A stretch of DNA of 22,560 nucleotides from a virus, in IMG/VR virus record IMGVR_UViG_3300007344_003261, positions 1 through 22,560 of that record; one strand, written 5' to 3'. Under the pieces are notes generated by a model that was not told where the DNA came from, searched no databases, and saw only the letters and a program-made list of their open reading frames with translations. The first letter of the stretch is position 1; every line of letters starts with the position of its first letter. The translations under genes and the position numbers were made by a program. Of the stretch, positions 3,320 through 11,457 are shown one piece after another.

Positions 3320-3484
3320 ATGGCGGCAGACTTAAAGCTCTACGTTGCTAATGCATTAGTAATGATGATAACTATGTCAGACATAGAAGTCATACTTAAA
3401 ATACTTTTATTAGTTGTCACAATAGGTTACACTATTTTTAAGTGGCTATCTGCTATTAAAAAATACAAAGATGGAAAAAATTAG
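3320..3484 (+). CDS. Small holin-like membrane protein (54 residues)
   Basis: An ATG at 3320 opens a 54-codon frame ending at TAG 3482-3484. The peptide has a mildly amphipathic N-terminal segment (DLKLYVANALVMMITMSD), one clear membrane helix (VILKILLLVVTIGYTIFKWL, residues 24-43) and a basic tail (SAIKKYKDGKN). It starts three bases after the preceding stop and its last 14 bases overlap the M15 peptidase start. It fills an otherwise empty 154-base gap. Holins are short membrane proteins that release or trigger the endolysin, and small holin genes often sit directly before the endolysin as here. Role is inferred from topology and position. It could instead be another small membrane protein. 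Confidence 0.65.
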   Translation: MAADLKLYVANALVMMITMSDIEVILKILLLVVTIGYTIFKWLSAIKKYKDGKN

Positions 3485-3932
3485 TGAACACATATCATAC
3501 AAGGAGGCTGTTAGAAGTTCTACTGCTAAAAGATTAGGCATAGAGAACACCCCCACTGAGTTTGATTTGAAGAGAATGAAGTCTATATCCAAAAATGTAT
3601 TTGAACCTCTTAGAGAGGCTGTAAATGGCCCTATACGCATTAATAGCTTCTTTAGGTCTAAGGAACTAAATAAAGCAGTAGGTGGAAGTGGTACGTCTCA
3701 GCACTGTAAAGGAGAAGCTTTTGACTTAGATGACTCTTACGGTCATATGTCAAACGCAGATATGTTTAAATACATAAAAGACAACCTTAGCTTTGACCAA
3801 ATGATATGGGAGTTTGGTGACGATGAGAATCCTGATTGGGTGCACGTTTCTTATGTATCAGAAGATAAAAATAGAAACAGGTGTTTAAGAGCTGTAAAGG
3901 AAAATGGTAGAACTGTTTATATTGTAATATAA
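3471..3932 (+). CDS. M15-family peptidase, putative endolysin
   Basis: 153 residues, a zinc D,D-peptidase of the M15 (VanX/VanY-like, M15_3) type that cleaves peptide cross-links of peptidoglycan. The zinc ligands are visible: His78 and Asp85 in SQHCKGEAFDLD, and His125 in DWVHVSY. The acidic residue three positions before the last His (Asp122) takes the place of the catalytic Glu of VanX (E-W-W-H). Arg62 in SFFRSKELN matches the conserved NSxxRS region upstream. There is no signal peptide, so export would depend on a holin, and the 54-residue membrane protein overlapping its start is the obvious partner. It ends on a TAATG junction with the next gene. A virion-borne role in entry is the alternative. 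Confidence 0.9.
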   Translation: MEKISEHISYKEAVRSSTAKRLGIENTPTEFDLKRMKSISKNVFEPLREAVNGPIRINSFFRSKELNKAVGGSGTSQHCKGEAFDLDDSYGHMSNADMFKYIKDNLSFDQMIWEFGDDENPDWVHVSYVSEDKNRNRCLRAVKENGRTVYIVI

Positions 3933-4207
3933 TGGCAAAGAAGGTAAGTAAGAAAGATATGGCTTGTAATAAGCCAAAGAGAACATCTGGACACCCTAAG
4001 AAGTCTCACGTTGTAAAGGCTTGTGAGGGTGGAAAAGAAAAGATAATTAGGTTTGGTCAGCAGGGTGCTAGTACGGCAGGAAAGCCAAAAGCTGGAGAGT
4101 CTGCTAAGATGAAGGCCAAGAGAAAAAGTTTTAAGGCTAGACACGGGAAGAATATAGCTAAAGGTAAAATGTCTGCTGCATATTGGGCAGACAAAGTTAA
4201 GTGGTAA
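3932..4207 (+). CDS. Small basic DUF-type phage protein
   Basis: 91 residues, very Lys-rich. The middle, HVVKACEGGKEKIIRFGQQG, and the C-terminus, KSFKARHGKNIAKGKMSAAYWADKVKW in segments, match a compact domain of unknown function that I recall from many large marine and Bacteroidota phages. Two Cys residues (12 and 31) and His20, His68 or so are present but do not form an obvious zinc-finger spacing. The charge suggests nucleic-acid contact or a virion-internal role. TAATG overlap with the endolysin stop. The family is probably real; the function is unknown. Confidence 0.7.
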   Translation: MAKKVSKKDMACNKPKRTSGHPKKSHVVKACEGGKEKIIRFGQQGASTAGKPKAGESAKMKAKRKSFKARHGKNIAKGKMSAAYWADKVKW

Positions 4208-4226
4208 AAAATAAACATATATAAAG

Positions 4227-4706
4227 ATGAAAGATAAAAGTATGATTAATATGGCAGGAACTTCTATGGGCTCTGGATTAAAGATGTGTGGAAGCCAAGT
4301 AGGCAAGCATATGAAAATGGGTGGACCAAAGATGATGGGTGGTGACGAAAAGAAAGGGTTTAGAGAGTTATTTGCTGAAAATAGAAAAGCTGGTAAGAAA
4401 GAGTTTAAGTACGAAGGTAAAATGTACAACACAAAAACTGCCGAAGACGTAGCAAAAGGATTAAGTGATAAAGACCTATATAAAGCATATGAAAGAGCAT
4501 ACAACTCTACAAGTTCTTTTGATAATGTGCCTGGTTCTGAGCAATTAAAATCTAGAAACGAAATAGAAAAATCTTATTTTAACGAAGGCGTAAAAAGGGA
4601 ATTAAAACAAGAGGCATTAGACGTTATTAAAAAAGGTATGATTGCTGGTGCTGTACCAGGCCGTAGACAAGCAATGAAAGCTACTTATAAAAAATTAAAG
4701 CCATAA
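4227..4706 (+). CDS. Hypothetical protein, Met/Gly-rich N-terminus (KSMIN type)
   Basis: 159 residues, not recognised. The first 45 residues are rich in Met, Gly and Lys (DKSMINMAGTSMGSGLKM, then KHMKMGGPKMMGG) and share the KSMIN-x-x-G pattern with the protein at 2298. The rest is helical and charged, with FKYEGKMYNTKTAEDVAKGLSDKDLYKAYERAYN in sequence, and the C-terminus is basic (RRQAMKATYKKLKP). No catalytic motif or membrane helix. The two KSMIN proteins may be related minor virion components or share a targeting or packaging peptide. Confidence 0.6.
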   Translation: MKDKSMINMAGTSMGSGLKMCGSQVGKHMKMGGPKMMGGDEKKGFRELFAENRKAGKKEFKYEGKMYNTKTAEDVAKGLSDKDLYKAYERAYNSTSSFDNVPGSEQLKSRNEIEKSYFNEGVKRELKQEALDVIKKGMIAGAVPGRRQAMKATYKKLKP

Positions 4707-4712
4707 TTAATA

Positions 4713-5063
4713 ATGGCATTTAAGTTATCTAACCCACCATATAAGAACGAACCGACCCCAGTCTACCAAGCAGACTTGGGGCCTGGTGTTCTTGGGCAAA
4801 GTAATAACAACGGCACTATCATAATAAATGAGAAGTTAGACCCTAAGTTTCACGATGAGGTTATTAGGCACGAAAAAGTCCACATAAATCAAATGTCACG
4901 AGGCGACTTAGATTATGATGATAAGAACATTTATTGGAAGGGTAAGAAGTACTCAAAGAATAATCCTAAGATAGCTATGGCAAGTCCATCTAATTCTCCT
5001 TGGGAAAAAGAGGCTTATAAGAAATCTAAAACTAAATATAAAGATAAAAAATACAATGTCTAA
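4713..5063 (+). CDS. Mini zinc-metallopeptidase-like protein (HExxH)
   Basis: 116 residues with a textbook zincin motif: His53-Glu54-Lys-Val-His57 inside DEVIRHEKVHINQM. Downstream acidic residues in SPWEKEAYK (Glu98 or Glu100) could supply the third zinc ligand, as in gluzincins. The segment LDYDDKNIYWKGKKY lies between. The preceding NGTIIINEKLDP could be the edge strand that binds substrate. No signal peptide or membrane helix. Small HExxH proteins occur in Bacteroidota phages, but their substrates are unknown. Candidate roles are prohead maturation, processing of a virion protein, or an accessory lysis enzyme. It overlaps the next gene by 8 bases. The motif is seen directly; activity is inferred. 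Confidence 0.6.
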   Translation: MAFKLSNPPYKNEPTPVYQADLGPGVLGQSNNNGTIIINEKLDPKFHDEVIRHEKVHINQMSRGDLDYDDKNIYWKGKKYSKNNPKIAMASPSNSPWEKEAYKKSKTKYKDKKYNV

Positions 5064-5502
5064 GAAATTTAAAGATACAAAGTTAGGTAAGTTTTTAGGT
5101 AAGACTGCTCCACATATATTAAATATAGCTGGAGACTTATTACCAGACGCAGGGGTTTTAGGTATTGTTAAAAACCTTGTAGAGAAAGACGAAAAGATTA
5201 GCCCAGAAGACAAAAAAGAAGCTTTAGCTCAAACTAAAGAAATGTATGAGTTAGAAGTAAAGGATAGAGAATCTGCTAGAAATAGAGAGGTTGAAGTTAA
5301 AAAGGCAGGTGGGAAGGATACTATGATGATGCTTACAGGTATCGTTGGGTTAGCTTCTTTCTTATTTATCATATACGCAGTAGTTTACGAGGAAGGAGTT
5401 TTACATAACGAACTCTTTGTACATTTAATGGGTATGGTTGAAGGTGTTGTAATTTCAAACATATTTGCCTACTATTATGGGACATCAGCAGAAAAACAAT
5501 AA
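5056..5502 (+). CDS. Holin-like membrane protein
   Basis: 148 residues. A basic N-terminus (KLGKFLGKTAPHILNIAGDLLPDAGVLGIVKNLV) is followed by a charged helical linker (about 45-85) and two hydrophobic helices: MMMLTGIVGLASFLFIIYAV (about 90-110) and HLMGMVEGVVISNIFAYYYG (about 122-143). The arrangement, with Glu in the last helix, resembles the 3TM/GTA-type phage holin families annotated in Bacteroidota phages. It overlaps the mini zincin gene by 8 bases. With the 54-residue membrane protein upstream, the phage has two holin candidates; one may be a holin and the other an antiholin or a virion membrane protein. Confidence 0.6.
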   Translation: MSKKFKDTKLGKFLGKTAPHILNIAGDLLPDAGVLGIVKNLVEKDEKISPEDKKEALAQTKEMYELEVKDRESARNREVEVKKAGGKDTMMMLTGIVGLASFLFIIYAVVYEEGVLHNELFVHLMGMVEGVVISNIFAYYYGTSAEKQ

Positions 5503-5787: not shown

Positions 5788-6014
5788 TGAGTAATGTTAT
5801 AAGAAAAATCAGCATAGGGTCTGATTACAAAAATGACGCTATGCACTACTCTGTTGGACAGCAGGTGTATGGTGGTCACGAAATATCTGATATTCTCTTC
5901 AATGAGAAAGATAACTCTTATAACATCTATATTCAAAAAGAAAAAGAAACATTGCCTTGGAAAAAGTTTAATTCTAATATGGCAATATCTGTTGAATATG
6001 ACTTGCAGTATTAA
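5787..6014 (+). CDS. Small conserved phage protein of unknown function
   Basis: 75 residues, probably mostly beta: ISIGSDYKNDAMHYSVGQ, then YNIYIQKEKETLPWKKFN and NMAISVEYDLQY. The first segment, with DYKNxAMHY, looks like a short family I recall from Bacteroidota phages, without known role. It is joined by TAATG overlaps to both the coiled-coil gene and the two-domain GroES-like gene, so the three are probably made together. Confidence 0.6.
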   Translation: MSNVIRKISIGSDYKNDAMHYSVGQQVYGGHEISDILFNEKDNSYNIYIQKEKETLPWKKFNSNMAISVEYDLQY

Positions 6015-6613
6015 TGAAAAGTATTCACGATTTTATCGTAAAACCCATAGAGGGTCGATACAATAATACTGTTAAGGTTGACGATGTTGACCTCATTATA
6101 AATACAAGAATTGAGGAATTTAAAAGTGTAAGCAAGGTGGCAGAAGTTGTCGCTTTGCCTTTATCTATAAAAACTGACATTAAAGTTGGAGATAAAGTAG
6201 TAGTACACCATAACGTATTTAGAAGATTCTATGACATTAGAGGGAACGAAAAAAATAGTAGAAGCTTCATTAAAGAAGATATGTATGCTTGTTCCCCTGA
6301 GCAGATATATATGTACGGAGCAAATAAGACTCATCTTAATTATTGTTTTGTAAAACCAATACTAAGTGATAGCATATTTTCTTTAACAAAAGAAAAACCA
6401 CTTATAGGTATTTTAAAGTATGGCAACAAAGGACTAACAAACTTAGGTATAAATGAGGGAGACCTTGTTTCATTTAGACCTGAATCTGAGTTTGAGTTTA
6501 TTATAGATGGGGAATTATTATATTGTATGAAATTTATTAATATCGTTGGAAGCTATGAACGTAAAGGAGATGAAAGAGAGTATAATCCTAGCTGGGCAAA
6601 AAGCAGTTCTTGA
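6014..6613 (+). CDS. Tandem GroES-like (Cpn10-fold) protein, putative two-domain co-chaperonin
   Basis: 199 residues that read as two Cpn10 barrels in a row. Domain 1 (about 1-101): HDFIVKP matches HDRVIVKR of E. coli GroES, SVSKVAEVVALP matches STRGEVLAVG, IKVGDKVVVHHN matches VKVGDIVIFND, and ACSPEQIYMY matches the closing MSESDILAI. Domain 2 (about 106-182): FVKPI, LIGILKYGNKG, INEGDLVSF and IDGELLYCMKFINIVGSY follow the same order; the last aligns closely with IDNEEVLIMSESDILAIV. Neither barrel has a canonical GGIVL loop; domain 1 has a longer one around DLIINTRI (26-33). Chloroplast Cpn20 is the known case of two fused GroES domains. It may cap the phage GroEL or be a virion protein reusing the fold. 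TAATG start; the 3' end overlaps the next gene. Confidence 0.6.
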   Translation: MKSIHDFIVKPIEGRYNNTVKVDDVDLIINTRIEEFKSVSKVAEVVALPLSIKTDIKVGDKVVVHHNVFRRFYDIRGNEKNSRSFIKEDMYACSPEQIYMYGANKTHLNYCFVKPILSDSIFSLTKEKPLIGILKYGNKGLTNLGINEGDLVSFRPESEFEFIIDGELLYCMKFINIVGSYERKGDEREYNPSWAKSSS

Positions 6614-6836
6614 GCTTATTAAAGTTGCTGAAGAAGCTATCATAGACTCAGGGGATGACATAACAGCGGATAGATTAAAGAATGCAGCAGCAACTAAAAA
6701 ACTTGCAATATTTGATGCATTTGAAATACTTCAACGTATACAAAATGAAGAAGATATACTAAACGAAAAACCTAAAGAAGAAACTAAAAAGAAAGAGTTT
6801 AGAGGGTTTGCTGAGGGAAGAGCTAATACTAAGTAA
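6555..6836 (+). CDS. Small helical protein, candidate terminase small subunit
   Basis: 93 residues from the ATG at 6555 (an upstream TTG at 6546 and an internal ATG at 6570 are alternatives). It is mainly helical: ESIILAGQKAVLELIKVAEE, then DDITADRLKNAAATKKLAIF and DAFEILQRIQNEEDIL, with a basic tail KKKEFRGFAEGRANTK. It sits directly before TerL, separated by one base, the usual place of the small terminase subunit that recognises phage DNA. No helix-turn-helix is obvious, so the call rests on position, size and helicity. Its 5' end overlaps the GroES-like gene by about 59 bases (44 if started at 6570), the longest overlap in the window. Confidence 0.45.
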   Translation: MNVKEMKESIILAGQKAVLELIKVAEEAIIDSGDDITADRLKNAAATKKLAIFDAFEILQRIQNEEDILNEKPKEETKKKEFRGFAEGRANTK

Positions 6837-6837
6837 T

Positions 6838-9051
6838 ATGTACGAGCAAAGTTTATACAGAGTACTAGACAACCACATAAAACCATCAACACTAAATAAA
6901 AAGAATATATCTAAGTCTTGGAAGTACGGATACAATGAAGATTTTGATGTTGTTGTAATAAGTAAGACAGGTCAAATAGGTGAGATTTACGAGATACAAA
7001 ACTTAAAGATTGCTCTACCAAAGGAGTTTGATGTTAAAAAACTACCAGGAAATAAGTGGTCTAATATTGAGTATCCAAAAGAACTTAGTAGAATAAAAAC
7101 AATATTTGACTGGGAAGAGTATCCAGAAGAATTTAAAGAAGAATGGTACGATTACATTGAGAAAGAATTTGAAAGAAGAGAACAAGGATTTTGGTTTAAT
7201 AATAAGGGTAATCCTACTTATATTACTGGCACTCATTATATGTACTTGCAATGGTCAAAGATTGACGTTGGACACCCCGACTTTAGAGAATCAAATAGAT
7301 TGTTCTACATATTTTGGGAAGCCTGCAAAGCTGACACAAGGTGCTTTGGAATGTGCTACCTTAAAAATAGACGGAGTGGATTCTCCTTTATGTCGTCTGG
7401 AGAGACAGTCAATCTTGCTACAATATCAGTTGACTCAAGATATGGAATACTATCAAAGTCAGGGCCTGATGCAAAAAAGATGTTTACCGACAAGGTTGTA
7501 CCAATCTCAGTCAACTACCCATTCTTCTTTAAACCTATACAAGATGGAATGGACAGACCCAAGACTGAACTTGCATATAGAGTACCAGCATCTAAATTTA
7601 CGAGGAGGAAACTTGATTCTAACGAAAAGCAAGAAGATATCAAAGGGTTGGATACTACTATTGATTGGAAGAATACAGGCGACAACTCCTATGATGGAGA
7701 AAAATTAAAGTTACTTGTACACGATGAGTCTGGTAAGTGGGAGAAACCTAACAACATACTTAATAACTGGAGGGTAACAAAAACTTGTCTTAGATTAGGT
7801 AGCAGGATAATAGGTAAGTGTATGATGGGTTCAACATCAAATGCTTTAGATAAGGGAGGAGATAATTTTAAAAAGTTATACTATGCATCAGACGTTACGA
7901 ACAGAAATAGCAATGGACAGACTGCTTCAGGACTATATTCTTTGTTCATACCTATGGAATGGAACTACGAGGGATACATTGATTCTTATGGACTACCTGT
8001 ATTCGATAAGCCAGAAAAGCCAATTAAAGACACATACGGAAATTTAATTAGTAAAGGAGTAATAGATTATTGGGAGAATGAAGTAGAAGGTCTTAAAAAC
8101 GACCAAGATGGATTAAATGAATTTTATAGACAGTTCCCTAGAACGGAACAGCACGCATTTAGAGATGAAGCAAAGGAGTCTATATTTAATTTGGCAAAGA
8201 TATACCAACAGATAGACCACAACGAAGGGATGAAGTCTAGTTCATTAATAACTAGAGGAAACTTTCAATGGGAGAATGGAATTCAAGATACAAGAGTAAT
8301 GTTTATGCCAAACCCAAAGGGTAGGTTTTATATAACTTGGATTCCTCCTGTATCTTTACAAAACAGAGTTATCTCTAAAGGTGGAACAAATTACCCAGGT
8401 AATGAGCATTTAGGAGCTTTTGGATGTGACCCATATGACATATCGGGAACAGTAGATAAGAGAGGTTCTAATGGTTCTCTTCACGGACTAACTAAGTTTA
8501 GTATGGAAGATGCTCCAAGTAACCACTTCTTTTTAGAGTACATTGCAAGACCTCAGACAGCAGAGATGTTTTTTGAGGATGTATTAATGGCTTGCGTATT
8601 TTACGGTATGCCAATACTAGCAGAAAATAACAAACCAAGGTTATTGTATCACTTTAAGAACAGAGGGTATAGAGGATACTCAATGAATAGACCTGATAAA
8701 AAGTATACAAGACTATCCGTAACAGAAAGAGAGATTGGTGGGATACCTAACTCTAGTGAGGATATAAAGCAAGCTCACGCTGCTGCAATAGAAACATATA
8801 TAGAGGAACTTGTAGGAATTTTAGGTGATGATGAGATGGGGGACGTTTACTTCCAAAGAACATTAGAAGATTGGGCAAGGTTTAATATAAACAACAGGAC
8901 ATCTCACGATGCTTCTATAAGTTCAGGATTAGCCATTATGGCTTGTAACAGAAATCGTTACGCACCAGTAAATAAAGTAGTAAGAAAAAACATAAGTCTA
9001 GGGTTTAAAAAATATGACAACTCTGGAAGTTATTCAAAAATAAGAAACTAA
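6838..9051 (+). CDS. terL: Terminase large subunit (ATPase and nuclease)
   Basis: DNA-packaging motor, 737 residues from the ATG at 6838, chosen over an upstream TTG at 6808 that would overlap the previous gene. ATPase: Walker-A-like KNRRSGFSF (176-184), Walker B KLLVHDE (291-297) with catalytic Glu297, and coupling motif GSTSN (331-335). Nuclease, RNase H type: Asp531 in GAFGCDPYD, acidic Glu596 near PILAEN, and Asp691 in RTSHDASIS. The N-terminal 170 residues are a long Trp/Tyr/Glu-rich region typical of large terminases of crAss-like and marine podoviruses. It abuts the portal gene with no gap. Motif order and residues make the identity secure; the lineage assignment is from memory of family patterns. 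Confidence 0.96.
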   Translation: MYEQSLYRVLDNHIKPSTLNKKNISKSWKYGYNEDFDVVVISKTGQIGEIYEIQNLKIALPKEFDVKKLPGNKWSNIEYPKELSRIKTIFDWEEYPEEFKEEWYDYIEKEFERREQGFWFNNKGNPTYITGTHYMYLQWSKIDVGHPDFRESNRLFYIFWEACKADTRCFGMCYLKNRRSGFSFMSSGETVNLATISVDSRYGILSKSGPDAKKMFTDKVVPISVNYPFFFKPIQDGMDRPKTELAYRVPASKFTRRKLDSNEKQEDIKGLDTTIDWKNTGDNSYDGEKLKLLVHDESGKWEKPNNILNNWRVTKTCLRLGSRIIGKCMMGSTSNALDKGGDNFKKLYYASDVTNRNSNGQTASGLYSLFIPMEWNYEGYIDSYGLPVFDKPEKPIKDTYGNLISKGVIDYWENEVEGLKNDQDGLNEFYRQFPRTEQHAFRDEAKESIFNLAKIYQQIDHNEGMKSSSLITRGNFQWENGIQDTRVMFMPNPKGRFYITWIPPVSLQNRVISKGGTNYPGNEHLGAFGCDPYDISGTVDKRGSNGSLHGLTKFSMEDAPSNHFFLEYIARPQTAEMFFEDVLMACVFYGMPILAENNKPRLLYHFKNRGYRGYSMNRPDKKYTRLSVTEREIGGIPNSSEDIKQAHAAAIETYIEELVGILGDDEMGDVYFQRTLEDWARFNINNRTSHDASISSGLAIMACNRNRYAPVNKVVRKNISLGFKKYDNSGSYSKIRN

Positions 9052-11457
9052 ATGAATGTAGTTGCAAATCCAAATAGCGTATTTCCTAGCCAGGTTGTTA
9101 CTAACGCTGAGAAAGATAGTCCAGAATATGGAAGGCAAGTTGCTCAAGCTGTAGAGTCTGAGTGGTTTAATCAAGGAGGGTATGGAAATAGATTTGCTAC
9201 AAATTATAATCACTTTCATAGTTTAAGATTATACGCTAGAGGTGAACAGCCAGTTCAAAAATATAAAGACGAACTTGCCATAAACGGAGACCTTTCTTAT
9301 TTAAACTTAGATTGGAAGCCCGTACCTGTAATTTCAAAGTTTGTAGATATAGTTACAAACGGTATCACAGAAAAAAAATATGAGATTAGTGCATACGCAC
9401 AAGACCCTGCATCTATAAAGAAAAGAACTAACTACGCTGAATCTTTAATGCAAGATATGATTGCTAGAGAAGAGTTAGAAATGATAGAGCAGCAGATAGG
9501 GATTAATGCATTTAATACTGCTGACCGTAGTAAAATACCTGAATCTAAAGAAGAGCTTTCTCTTCATATGCAACTTGACTATAAGCAATCAATAGAGATA
9601 GCGGAAGAAGAAGCTATTAATCAAGTACTTGCTAAAAACAAGTTTGATGAAATAAGAAAAAGATTCAACTATGACCTAACCGTTCTTGGTATAGGTGCTG
9701 TCAAAACAAATTGGAATAAAGCTAATGGGGTGAAAATAGAGTACTGCGACCCTGCAAACTTAGTTTACTCATACACTGAAGACCCTAACTTTGAAGACAT
9801 ATACTATGTAGGAGAAGTTAAAGCTGTTACAATACCAGAACTTAAAAAACAATTTCCAAATATACCTCAAGAGGAACTAAAAAGAATTGAGGATATGCCA
9901 GGCAATAGAGAGTACTTGACTGGGTGGAAAGGGTATGATGAAAACACAGTTCAGGTTTTATACTTTGAGTACAAGACTTACAACAACCAAGTATTTAAAA
10001 TAAAGACAGGACCAAACGGGTTAGAAAAAGTTATACAAAAATCAGATGACTTTAACCCACCTGAAAATGATACATTTAAAAAAGTATCAAGGAGTATAGA
10101 GGTTCTTTACAGTGGTGCTAAAATTCTTGGAACAAATACAATGTTGAAGTGGGAACTGTCTGAGAATATGACAAGACCATACGCAGATACTACTAAGGTA
10201 GAAATGAACTATGTTCTGTGTGCACCAAGAATGTATAATGGAAGGATTGAATCTGTTGTAAGTAAGATTACAGGATTTGCTGATATGATTCAAATAACAC
10301 ACTTGAAACTACAGCAAGTTATGACAAGGATGGTCCCTGATGGAGTATTCTTAGATGTGGACGGGTTGGCAGAGGTTGATTTAGGAAACGGAACTAGCTA
10401 CAATCCAGCAGAAGCTCTTAATATGTACTTTCAAACAGGTAGTGTATTAGGTAGGTCAATGACACAAGATGGAGAAATGAATAGGGGTAAGGTTCCAATC
10501 CAAGAGCTTACAAGCTCAAGTGGTGGAGCTAAGATACAGTCATTAATCCAAACGTATCAGTACTACTTACAAATGATAAGAGACGTTACAGGATTGAATG
10601 AGGCAAGAGATGGTTCTGCTCCATCTAAGGATGCACTCGTAGGACTTCAAAAGATGGCCGCTAATCAATCCAATGTTGCAACTAGACACATACTTCAAGC
10701 AAGTTGTTATTTAACTCTTAGAGCTTGTGAAAACATATCTATGAGGATTGCTGATTCATTACAGTTTGCCTTAACTTCTAACTCGCTTCAGAATAGTATT
10801 ACAAAGTTTAACACGGCAACATTATTAGAAATGTCTACCTTAAACTTGCACGACTTTGGTATATTCCTTGAACTAGAGCCAGACGATGAGGCTAAGGCTC
10901 AGTTAGAGCAAAACATACAAGTAGCTCTACAAGGCGGTGGTATAGACTTAGAGGATGCAATTGATATTAGGCAAATAAAAAATCTTCAGCTTGCAAACGA
11001 AATGCTAAAGCATAGAAGAAAGAAAAAACAAGAAGCAGCAAGACAAGCCCAATTAGAAAATATTCAAGCACAAGCAGACGCAAATGCACAGGCTTCAGAA
11101 AGAGCTGCTATGGCAGAAGCACAAAAGCAACAGATTGTAACAGCAGAGAAAGTAAGTCTTGAACAGGCTAAATCTCAGTTTGAAATTCAGAGAATGCAAA
11201 CAGAGGCTGAAATAAAAAGAGGGCTTATGGCTGAAGAGTTTAACTTTAATATGCAACTAGCTCAGATTAGAGCAAATGCTGAATTGTCAAAGGAACAAGA
11301 TATTGAAGATAGAAAAGATAAAAGAGTAAAAATACAAGGAACTCAGCAATCTGAGTTAATTGACCAAAGAAAAAATAACCTATTACCGAAAAACTTTGAA
11401 AGTTCAGGTAATGATGTTATGGGGGGGATTGGTTTAGGACAATTTGACCCAAAGTAA
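9052..11457 (+). CDS. Portal protein
   Basis: 801 residues, forming the dodecameric ring through which TerL packages DNA. The N-terminal region has SLRLYARGEQPVQKYK, LNLDWKPVPVISKFVDIV and the following wing, similar to crAss-like portals. The middle contains the Pro/Asp-rich CDPANLVYSYTEDPNFEDIYYVGE strand region and a DVTGLNEARDGSAP helix-loop. From about residue 644 to 772 it is a long Gln/Ala/Glu-rich helix (a barrel domain), followed by a Gly-rich tail. The start immediately follows the terL stop. The 7-base G run at 11421-11427 lies near the 3' end. Family placement is by size, position and recalled patterns. Confidence 0.88.
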   Translation: MNVVANPNSVFPSQVVTNAEKDSPEYGRQVAQAVESEWFNQGGYGNRFATNYNHFHSLRLYARGEQPVQKYKDELAINGDLSYLNLDWKPVPVISKFVDIVTNGITEKKYEISAYAQDPASIKKRTNYAESLMQDMIAREELEMIEQQIGINAFNTADRSKIPESKEELSLHMQLDYKQSIEIAEEEAINQVLAKNKFDEIRKRFNYDLTVLGIGAVKTNWNKANGVKIEYCDPANLVYSYTEDPNFEDIYYVGEVKAVTIPELKKQFPNIPQEELKRIEDMPGNREYLTGWKGYDENTVQVLYFEYKTYNNQVFKIKTGPNGLEKVIQKSDDFNPPENDTFKKVSRSIEVLYSGAKILGTNTMLKWELSENMTRPYADTTKVEMNYVLCAPRMYNGRIESVVSKITGFADMIQITHLKLQQVMTRMVPDGVFLDVDGLAEVDLGNGTSYNPAEALNMYFQTGSVLGRSMTQDGEMNRGKVPIQELTSSSGGAKIQSLIQTYQYYLQMIRDVTGLNEARDGSAPSKDALVGLQKMAANQSNVATRHILQASCYLTLRACENISMRIADSLQFALTSNSLQNSITKFNTATLLEMSTLNLHDFGIFLELEPDDEAKAQLEQNIQVALQGGGIDLEDAIDIRQIKNLQLANEMLKHRRKKKQEAARQAQLENIQAQADANAQASERAAMAEAQKQQIVTAEKVSLEQAKSQFEIQRMQTEAEIKRGLMAEEFNFNMQLAQIRANAELSKEQDIEDRKDKRVKIQGTQQSELIDQRKNNLLPKNFESSGNDVMGGIGLGQFDPK

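Follow-up and report, generated by a model that had tools for sequence, protein, structure and literature searches.

The window, by which we mean the whole 22,560-base virus record analysed here, encodes a protein of 116 residues (ZN116) that looks like a real enzyme and does not appear to be part of the particle-building machinery. It carries a conserved HExxH motif, is under purifying selection, has a predicted fold that moderately matches those of small zinc peptidases, is linked to a holin gene across related loci and is absent from relatives with the same head genes. With about even confidence we read ZN116 as a gluzincin-type zinc endopeptidase, soluble and cytoplasmic, that would be made late, in linkage with the holin, and would act as an accessory protease of the lysis stage and not in capsid building.

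The 23 genes predicted in the window follow the order GroEL, GroES, small proteins, M15 endolysin, ZN116, a membrane protein, four small proteins, terminase and portal, after which come a 393-aa protein at the scaffold position and further proteins of structural size. The features needed below are:

46-1584: phage-encoded GroEL (PF00118, E 1.9e-55)
1584-1844: phage-encoded GroES (PF00166, E 1.6e-10)
3471-3932, + strand: M15 peptidase, endolysin, upstream of ZN116 (PF08291, E 3.4e-14; phrog_894 endolysin, E 2.4e-27)
3932-4207, + strand: small basic protein matching phrog_7595
4227-4706, + strand: 159-aa protein with no assigned function, directly upstream of ZN116
4713-5063, + strand: ZN116, minimal HExxH zinc-peptidase-like protein of 116 aa (from homologues, conservation and structure models)
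4713-4742, + strand: N-terminal segment MAFKLSNPPY of ZN116, low model confidence; Met1 and Phe3 invariant, Lys4 and Pro9 nearly so
4869-4883, + strand: HEKVH, residues 53-57 in helix 44-63; His53 and His57 predicted zinc ligands, Glu54 predicted catalytic residue
5004-5006, + strand: Glu98, first Glu of WEKEA in helix 96-105, predicted third zinc ligand
5056-5502, + strand: membrane protein of 148 aa, taken as a holin from its relatives, overlapping the end of ZN116, stop codon included, by 8 nt
6014-6613: 199-aa protein upstream of the terminase, relatives of which are annotated as co-chaperonin GroES/cpn10
6808-9051, + strand: terminase large subunit (phrog_6681, E 3.5e-168)
9052-11457, + strand: portal protein (phrog_6547, E 7.3e-147)

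The first-pass annotation had placed ZN116 in a phage structural region. This holds insofar as the terminase, portal and capsid genes lie downstream, but the gene itself sits among chaperonins, the M15 endolysin and the holin. The GroEL and GroES pair keeps its syntenic order across many related loci among the matches listed. The 199-aa protein shows a weak Cpn10 match (residues 141-179, E 0.03) and may be a second, enlarged co-chaperonin. The small basic protein at 3932-4207 weakly matches a minor head or DNA pilot protein family (E 0.0009) and may be a virion protein that binds DNA.

The portal shares 26-51% identity with its counterparts in phages of Flavobacterium, Cellulophaga, Maribacter and Tenacibaculum (named relatives being the Flavobacterium elemo phages, Cellulophaga phi38:1, Maribacter phage Panino and Tenacibaculum phage Gundel_1) and in the uncultured phage MW202828. 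A study of viral genomes from the sea describes diverse Bacteroidetes phages including phi38:1, 36 with GroEL (PMC5332604), and we infer that the window phage is a member of the same wider group.

ZN116 was initially picked out by its HEKVH motif, and it is the only one of the 23 predicted proteins with HExxH. Since HExxH arose in 5 of 2000 residue shuffles of ZN116 and at least once in 118 of 2000 shuffles of all 23 proteins, the motif alone is only mildly improbable, and its conservation is the real evidence. HExxHxxQ is kept in all 109 distinct homologues, as it was in all 93 of an earlier set, so that none has lost the motif, as the first-pass annotation had asked to be checked. Invariant throughout this set are His53, Glu54, His57, Gln60, Gly64, Asp65, Leu66, Tyr68, Asp69, Tyr74, Trp75, Lys76, Gly77, Glu98, Ala101 and Tyr102. 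Compared with the window gene, the homologues have a median dN/dS of 0.083 (58 usable of 66 of equal length; range 0.05-1.11; 7 saturated), and ZN116 is thus under purifying selection. No hydrophobic segment is present, the maximum 19-residue Kyte-Doolittle mean being 0.26, and there is therefore no sign of a transmembrane helix or, in agreement with the initial annotation, of a signal peptide. One scan of IMG/VR returned 471 relatives, 80 of which were kept, and a second scan gave at least 557 matching stretches. Seven relatives sit in genome bins and are probably phage contigs binned with their hosts. One record of 129,537 bases (G008) contains ZN116 twice, at 59736 and at 123579, as well as two M15 genes, with about 63 kb between the copies; it may consist of two joined genomes.

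A later Glu in WEKEA (residues 97-101, nt 5001-5015; WEKEAY spans 97-102) had been put forward as a metal ligand. The homologues bear this out and allow the proposal to be refined. Gluzincins of the M48 and M78 types bind the metal through the first Glu of an ExxA[DN] motif. Glu98 is the first Glu of such an ExxA[DN]-like site and never varies (109/109), Glu100 being kept in 107 of 109 and replaced by Gln in two; for these reasons Glu98 appears the better candidate for the third ligand. It lies in a later helix (96-105), where it could serve as that ligand. Replacement of Glu100 by Gln was seen in a single lineage (L110 and L111, reading YEAQAY), which retains Glu98 and HExxH. In the relatives from T4-like phages this stretch is PWELEA, PHEVEA or PWEIEA, with both Glu residues kept.

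Known sequence families recognise ZN116 only faintly. No Pfam or NCBIfam family scored above cut-off, a PADLOC search gave nothing useful, and PDB sequence searches returned noise only, the best profile match being selecase (4qhj) at E 1. Below threshold, Pfam links the family weakly to DUF6782, M78, SprT-like and WLM. DUF6782 (PF20573) weakly matches 13 of 21 alignment members (best E 4.7e-4), with 13.6 bits for the window protein against a cut-off of 27; Peptidase M78 (PF06114) weakly matches three of the 21, all short of its cut-off (best E 0.074). The window protein does match phrog_16532 (E 4.1e-9) and phrog_10499 (E 5.2e-9), and all 21 members of alignment A2 match both. No paper naming ZN116 was found among the titles and abstract openings searched.

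When the window protein was compared by tblastn with 50,697 phage records, Synechococcus phage S-SM2 was the sole hit (two records). The S-SM2 protein as query in turn matched 34 records, which include viruses from marine single cells, cyanophages, phages of Sinorhizobium and one of Stenotrophomonas. A ZN116 profile recognises four of six tested phage relatives; the two missed, from P-HM1 and phiM12, match the same PHROGs. The signature common to ZN116 and these distant relatives is HExxHxxQ...WkG...PWExEA. The cyanophage proteins belong to T4 gene cluster 70 (T4-GC 70), mostly hypothetical and noted with PF06114, the one from S-BM3 being named a WLM protease domain protein. Like ZN116, the phrog_10499 and phrog_16532 proteins of T4-like cyanophages (T4-GC 70; S-SM2, P-SSM2, P-HM1, S-BM3), Sinorhizobium phage phiM12 and Stenotrophomonas phage DLP6 carry HExxHxxQ, a Trp motif in the middle (mostly WkG or WhG) and PxExEA. 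They differ from it in length (136-165 aa), with about 45 additional N-terminal alignment columns, whereas ZN116 starts with the MAFK segment and has different gene surroundings. Because the relatives carry the longer N-terminal part, ZN116 is seen as a trimmed version.

Another small zinc peptidase, this one with a membrane segment, is encoded at L331:8649-9029 (- strand; the same gene as L324:2147-2530). It reads HESIHIKQQ ... FEREAY, matches phrog_15610 protease (E 6.9e-30) and occurs in the ZN116-positive record G012, far from ZN116.

Two AlphaFold2 models, built from 18 and 21 sequences, reached pLDDT 77.7 and 78.3 and pTM 0.69 and 0.67. Both predict strands at 17-20, 28-30 and 36-39, a helix at 44-63 carrying HExxH, strands within 66-81 and a helix at 96-105, with residues 1-12 poorly modelled. 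The helical setting suggested for the motif is thus reproduced in both models. The first three Foldseek ranks against the PDB are proabylysin 4jiu (probability 0.96), selecase 4qhi (0.82) and IrrE 3dti (0.85), at E 0.1 and none of them significant. VIA-align places IrrE 3dte first with Z 6.1 over 82 residues, a second IrrE reaching 5.8 and PprI 6.0, followed by Spartan 6mdx (5.2), proabylysin 4jiu (4.7), selecase (4.3), CapP (3.8), BlaR1 (3.7) and Wss1 (3.4). Each Z value is weak by itself, and the moderate case for a small zinc-peptidase fold comes from nearly all leading rows being zinc peptidases or their kin. The predicted viral structures of BFVD yield eight matches with E <= 0.001, and three of these carry SprT-like names. 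The weakness of the PDB matches (Foldseek E 0.1; Z below 8) and the moderate quality of the models (pLDDT about 78) count against our reading.

The minigluzincins proabylysin (4jiu) and selecase/projannalysin (4qhi, 4jix) resemble ZN116 in size (about 105-110 residues), carry HExxH and are the top Foldseek matches, but they are archaeal and show no sequence homology above noise; 72-76 residues were aligned at rmsd 3.1-3.6 in most rows. IrrE and PprI (Peptidase M78) give the highest VIA-align Z values, 6.1 and 6.0 over 81-82 residues, but IrrE is larger and ZN116 does not match PF06114 above cut-off. SprT/Spartan and the WLM protease Wss1 have a related fold (Z 5.2 and 3.4), and some phage relatives of ZN116 bear SprT-like or WLM names. 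The third zinc ligand of SprT/Spartan and WLM proteases is a His, whereas no His after His57 is invariant in the 109 ZN116 homologues. In our reading the fold would be of the proabylysin/selecase, IrrE and SprT/WLM type, in which His53, His57 and Glu98 would hold zinc and Glu54 would activate water.

The genomic neighbourhood was counted in 79 distinct intervals, selected because each contains orf69, ZN116 and orf79, with proteins clustered by single-linkage BLAST, in which remote or low-complexity links may merge families. For comparison, 63 ZN116-negative loci were taken from 100 fetched, anchored on orf199 and with enough upstream sequence, near-duplicates and fragments included; 33 of them have more than 7 kb upstream and, with L081-L083, make up a set of 36. 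A holin of the phrog_3427 type lies downstream of ZN116 in 77 of the 79 loci (cluster 1 in 72, cluster 14 in five). In 38 of these 77 the holin start overlaps the ZN116 stop, the overlap being 8, 4 or 1 nt; in 11 more it follows within 50 nt, and in 28 it lies farther away, with genes between. The 148-aa protein of the window matches no holin family in Pfam or PHROG directly; it clusters with proteins that match the phrog_3427 holin at E 4.6e-24 and 4.6e-18. The holin family also occurs in 7 of the 36 relatives that lack ZN116 and extend far enough upstream, which shows that the holin does not need ZN116. The association between the two has p 2e-18, a descriptive value that ignores shared descent. 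Shared descent may in fact account for the linkage, the loci forming one clade and the ZN116-less set a different branch.

An M15 endolysin falls within the interval in only 35 of the 79 loci. PF08291 was found in 13 of 18 long records, among them G010, where it is far from ZN116, and an M15 search gave no match in G015, G009, G017 and G018. G011 has an amidase at 48 kb, far from ZN116, in place of an M15 gene, and in both G010 and G011 ZN116 is still upstream of the holin. Since the holin is present in 77 of 79 loci, and M15 in only 35 and relocated in some genomes, ZN116 keeps the holin as its lasting partner and not the endolysin; as a lysis gene, only the former is stably linked to it. In 35 of the 79 intervals a 51-aa protein (GLGDxIEKFTKATGIK...CGC...LNKxFPY; for example L061:2721-2873) is encoded directly upstream of ZN116; its consensus, entered as typed, matched in only two records of the phage collection.

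The proximity of ZN116 to the M15 endolysin and the holin in the window, and to M15 in those 35 intervals, could suggest a peptidoglycan endopeptidase, that is a second endolysin. We regard this as highly improbable, as the close folds are those of protein-cutting proteases and, where no endolysin adjoins ZN116, an M15 enzyme (G010) or an amidase (G011) is located elsewhere. ZN116 as an endolysin substitute was rejected on the latter ground.

In the favoured reading of ZN116 as an accessory lysis-stage protease, it would be expressed at a late stage of infection, its translation tightly linked to that of the holin, and would most likely act at or just before lysis; its target would be a protein of the host envelope, a host regulator or a protein that controls lysis. 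In a more specific form of this idea, ZN116, having no leader, would stay in the cytoplasm until it escapes through the holin holes, and would then sever the proteins that tie the outer membrane to the cell wall, so that proteolysis would do the job that spanins do by membrane fusion. A spanin-like protein of 181-207 aa with one N-terminal membrane helix was seen in four of seven ZN116-less genomes and none of eight ZN116-positive ones (p 0.026). Its identity as a spanin is a guess from its anatomy, and two of the four proteins, when scanned, had no PHROG match. Since G021, G022 and G024 have neither ZN116 nor a spanin-like protein, replacement of spanins by ZN116 stays a weak lead, and we find the holin-hole route improbable.

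ZN116 could instead serve host takeover or quality control and have no part in lysis, its place beside the holin reflecting no more than the late expression of both genes. IrrE cuts a repressor, and SprT/WLM enzymes cut proteins stuck to DNA, so the target would be a host regulator or a DNA-bound protein, respectively. The closest folds, IrrE, Spartan/SprT and Wss1, point this way, as do the relatives in P-SSM2, S-SM2, P-HM1 and phiM12, which lie among small hypothetical and metabolic genes and not among annotated lysis genes. No annotated lysis genes are found near the T4-like relatives in the stretches read, which favours a host-directed or housekeeping role. However, the third ligand would be a Glu, with no conserved later His, unlike in SprT and WLM, no repressor partner was identified for ZN116, and the position beside the holin is very stable. 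We give this reading, which includes the action on a host protein that the first-pass annotation offered as an option, a lower but appreciable probability. Taken broadly, ZN116 most likely serves as an accessory protease, either during lysis or in taking over the host.

The first-pass annotation had also suggested that such a protease could process a virion or scaffold protein, which comparison with related genomes does not support. In favour of a virion, prohead or scaffold maturation protease, ZN116 shares a gene run with the terminase and portal and lies upstream of them in most loci among the matches listed. Such a protease should be present wherever the head module is. Whole-record searches found ZN116 in nine of nine records already known to be positive and in none of 12 related records carrying relatives of the same head genes, and head assembly in this phage group therefore does not generally need it. 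The stable neighbour is the holin, and ZN116 does not lie between the portal and the major capsid gene. Zincins are not known among prohead protease families. A maturation function is accordingly unlikely, and ZN116 as prohead protease was rejected as the main reading.

The N-terminal segment raises a further alternative, in which ZN116 would be packaged into the virion and injected with the DNA, the disordered MAFK start serving as a packaging tag shared with other small proteins. Phe3 is invariant although the segment is unstructured. M.FK starts occur in 6 of 55 other clusters confined to the intervals against 0 of 177 confined to the outside, and an M.FK partner is present in 12 of 79 ZN116-positive against 0 of 63 ZN116-negative intervals (p 0.0006). 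By cluster, SP[FLM] (in effect within the first 60 residues) was counted in 14 of 55 against 11 of 177, and a looser M.[FY][KIYQ] start, also enriched, in 16 of 55 against 12 of 177; two further patterns gave p 0.10 and 0.04. These counts are set against the low share of positive intervals with a partner (only 12 of 79), the similar frequency of SP[FLMI] motifs in positive and negative intervals (60/79 and 45/63) and the lack of a second M.FK start among the listed window ORFs. Many partners also directly follow ZN116, and copying of the start region would be a simpler cause; we consider it as likely as a protein tag. Codon choices differ between the M.FK-start genes. A packaged, injected protease is quite improbable, and a MAFK tag system was not adopted, SP motifs not being enriched per locus and no second M.FK protein occurring among the window ORFs. 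Proteins directly downstream of ZN116 that do not group with it and start with MAFK[ILM] are found at L108:8275, L110:2821, L114:10324, L059:392, L149:4515 and L195:1504.

ZN116 defines an abundant, strictly conserved and uncharacterised subfamily of phage proteases close in size to the smallest zinc peptidases known. Should it prove active, it would provide a simple soluble model for gluzincin catalysis, and its linkage to the holin offers a testable link from proteolysis to lysis in marine flavobacterial phages.
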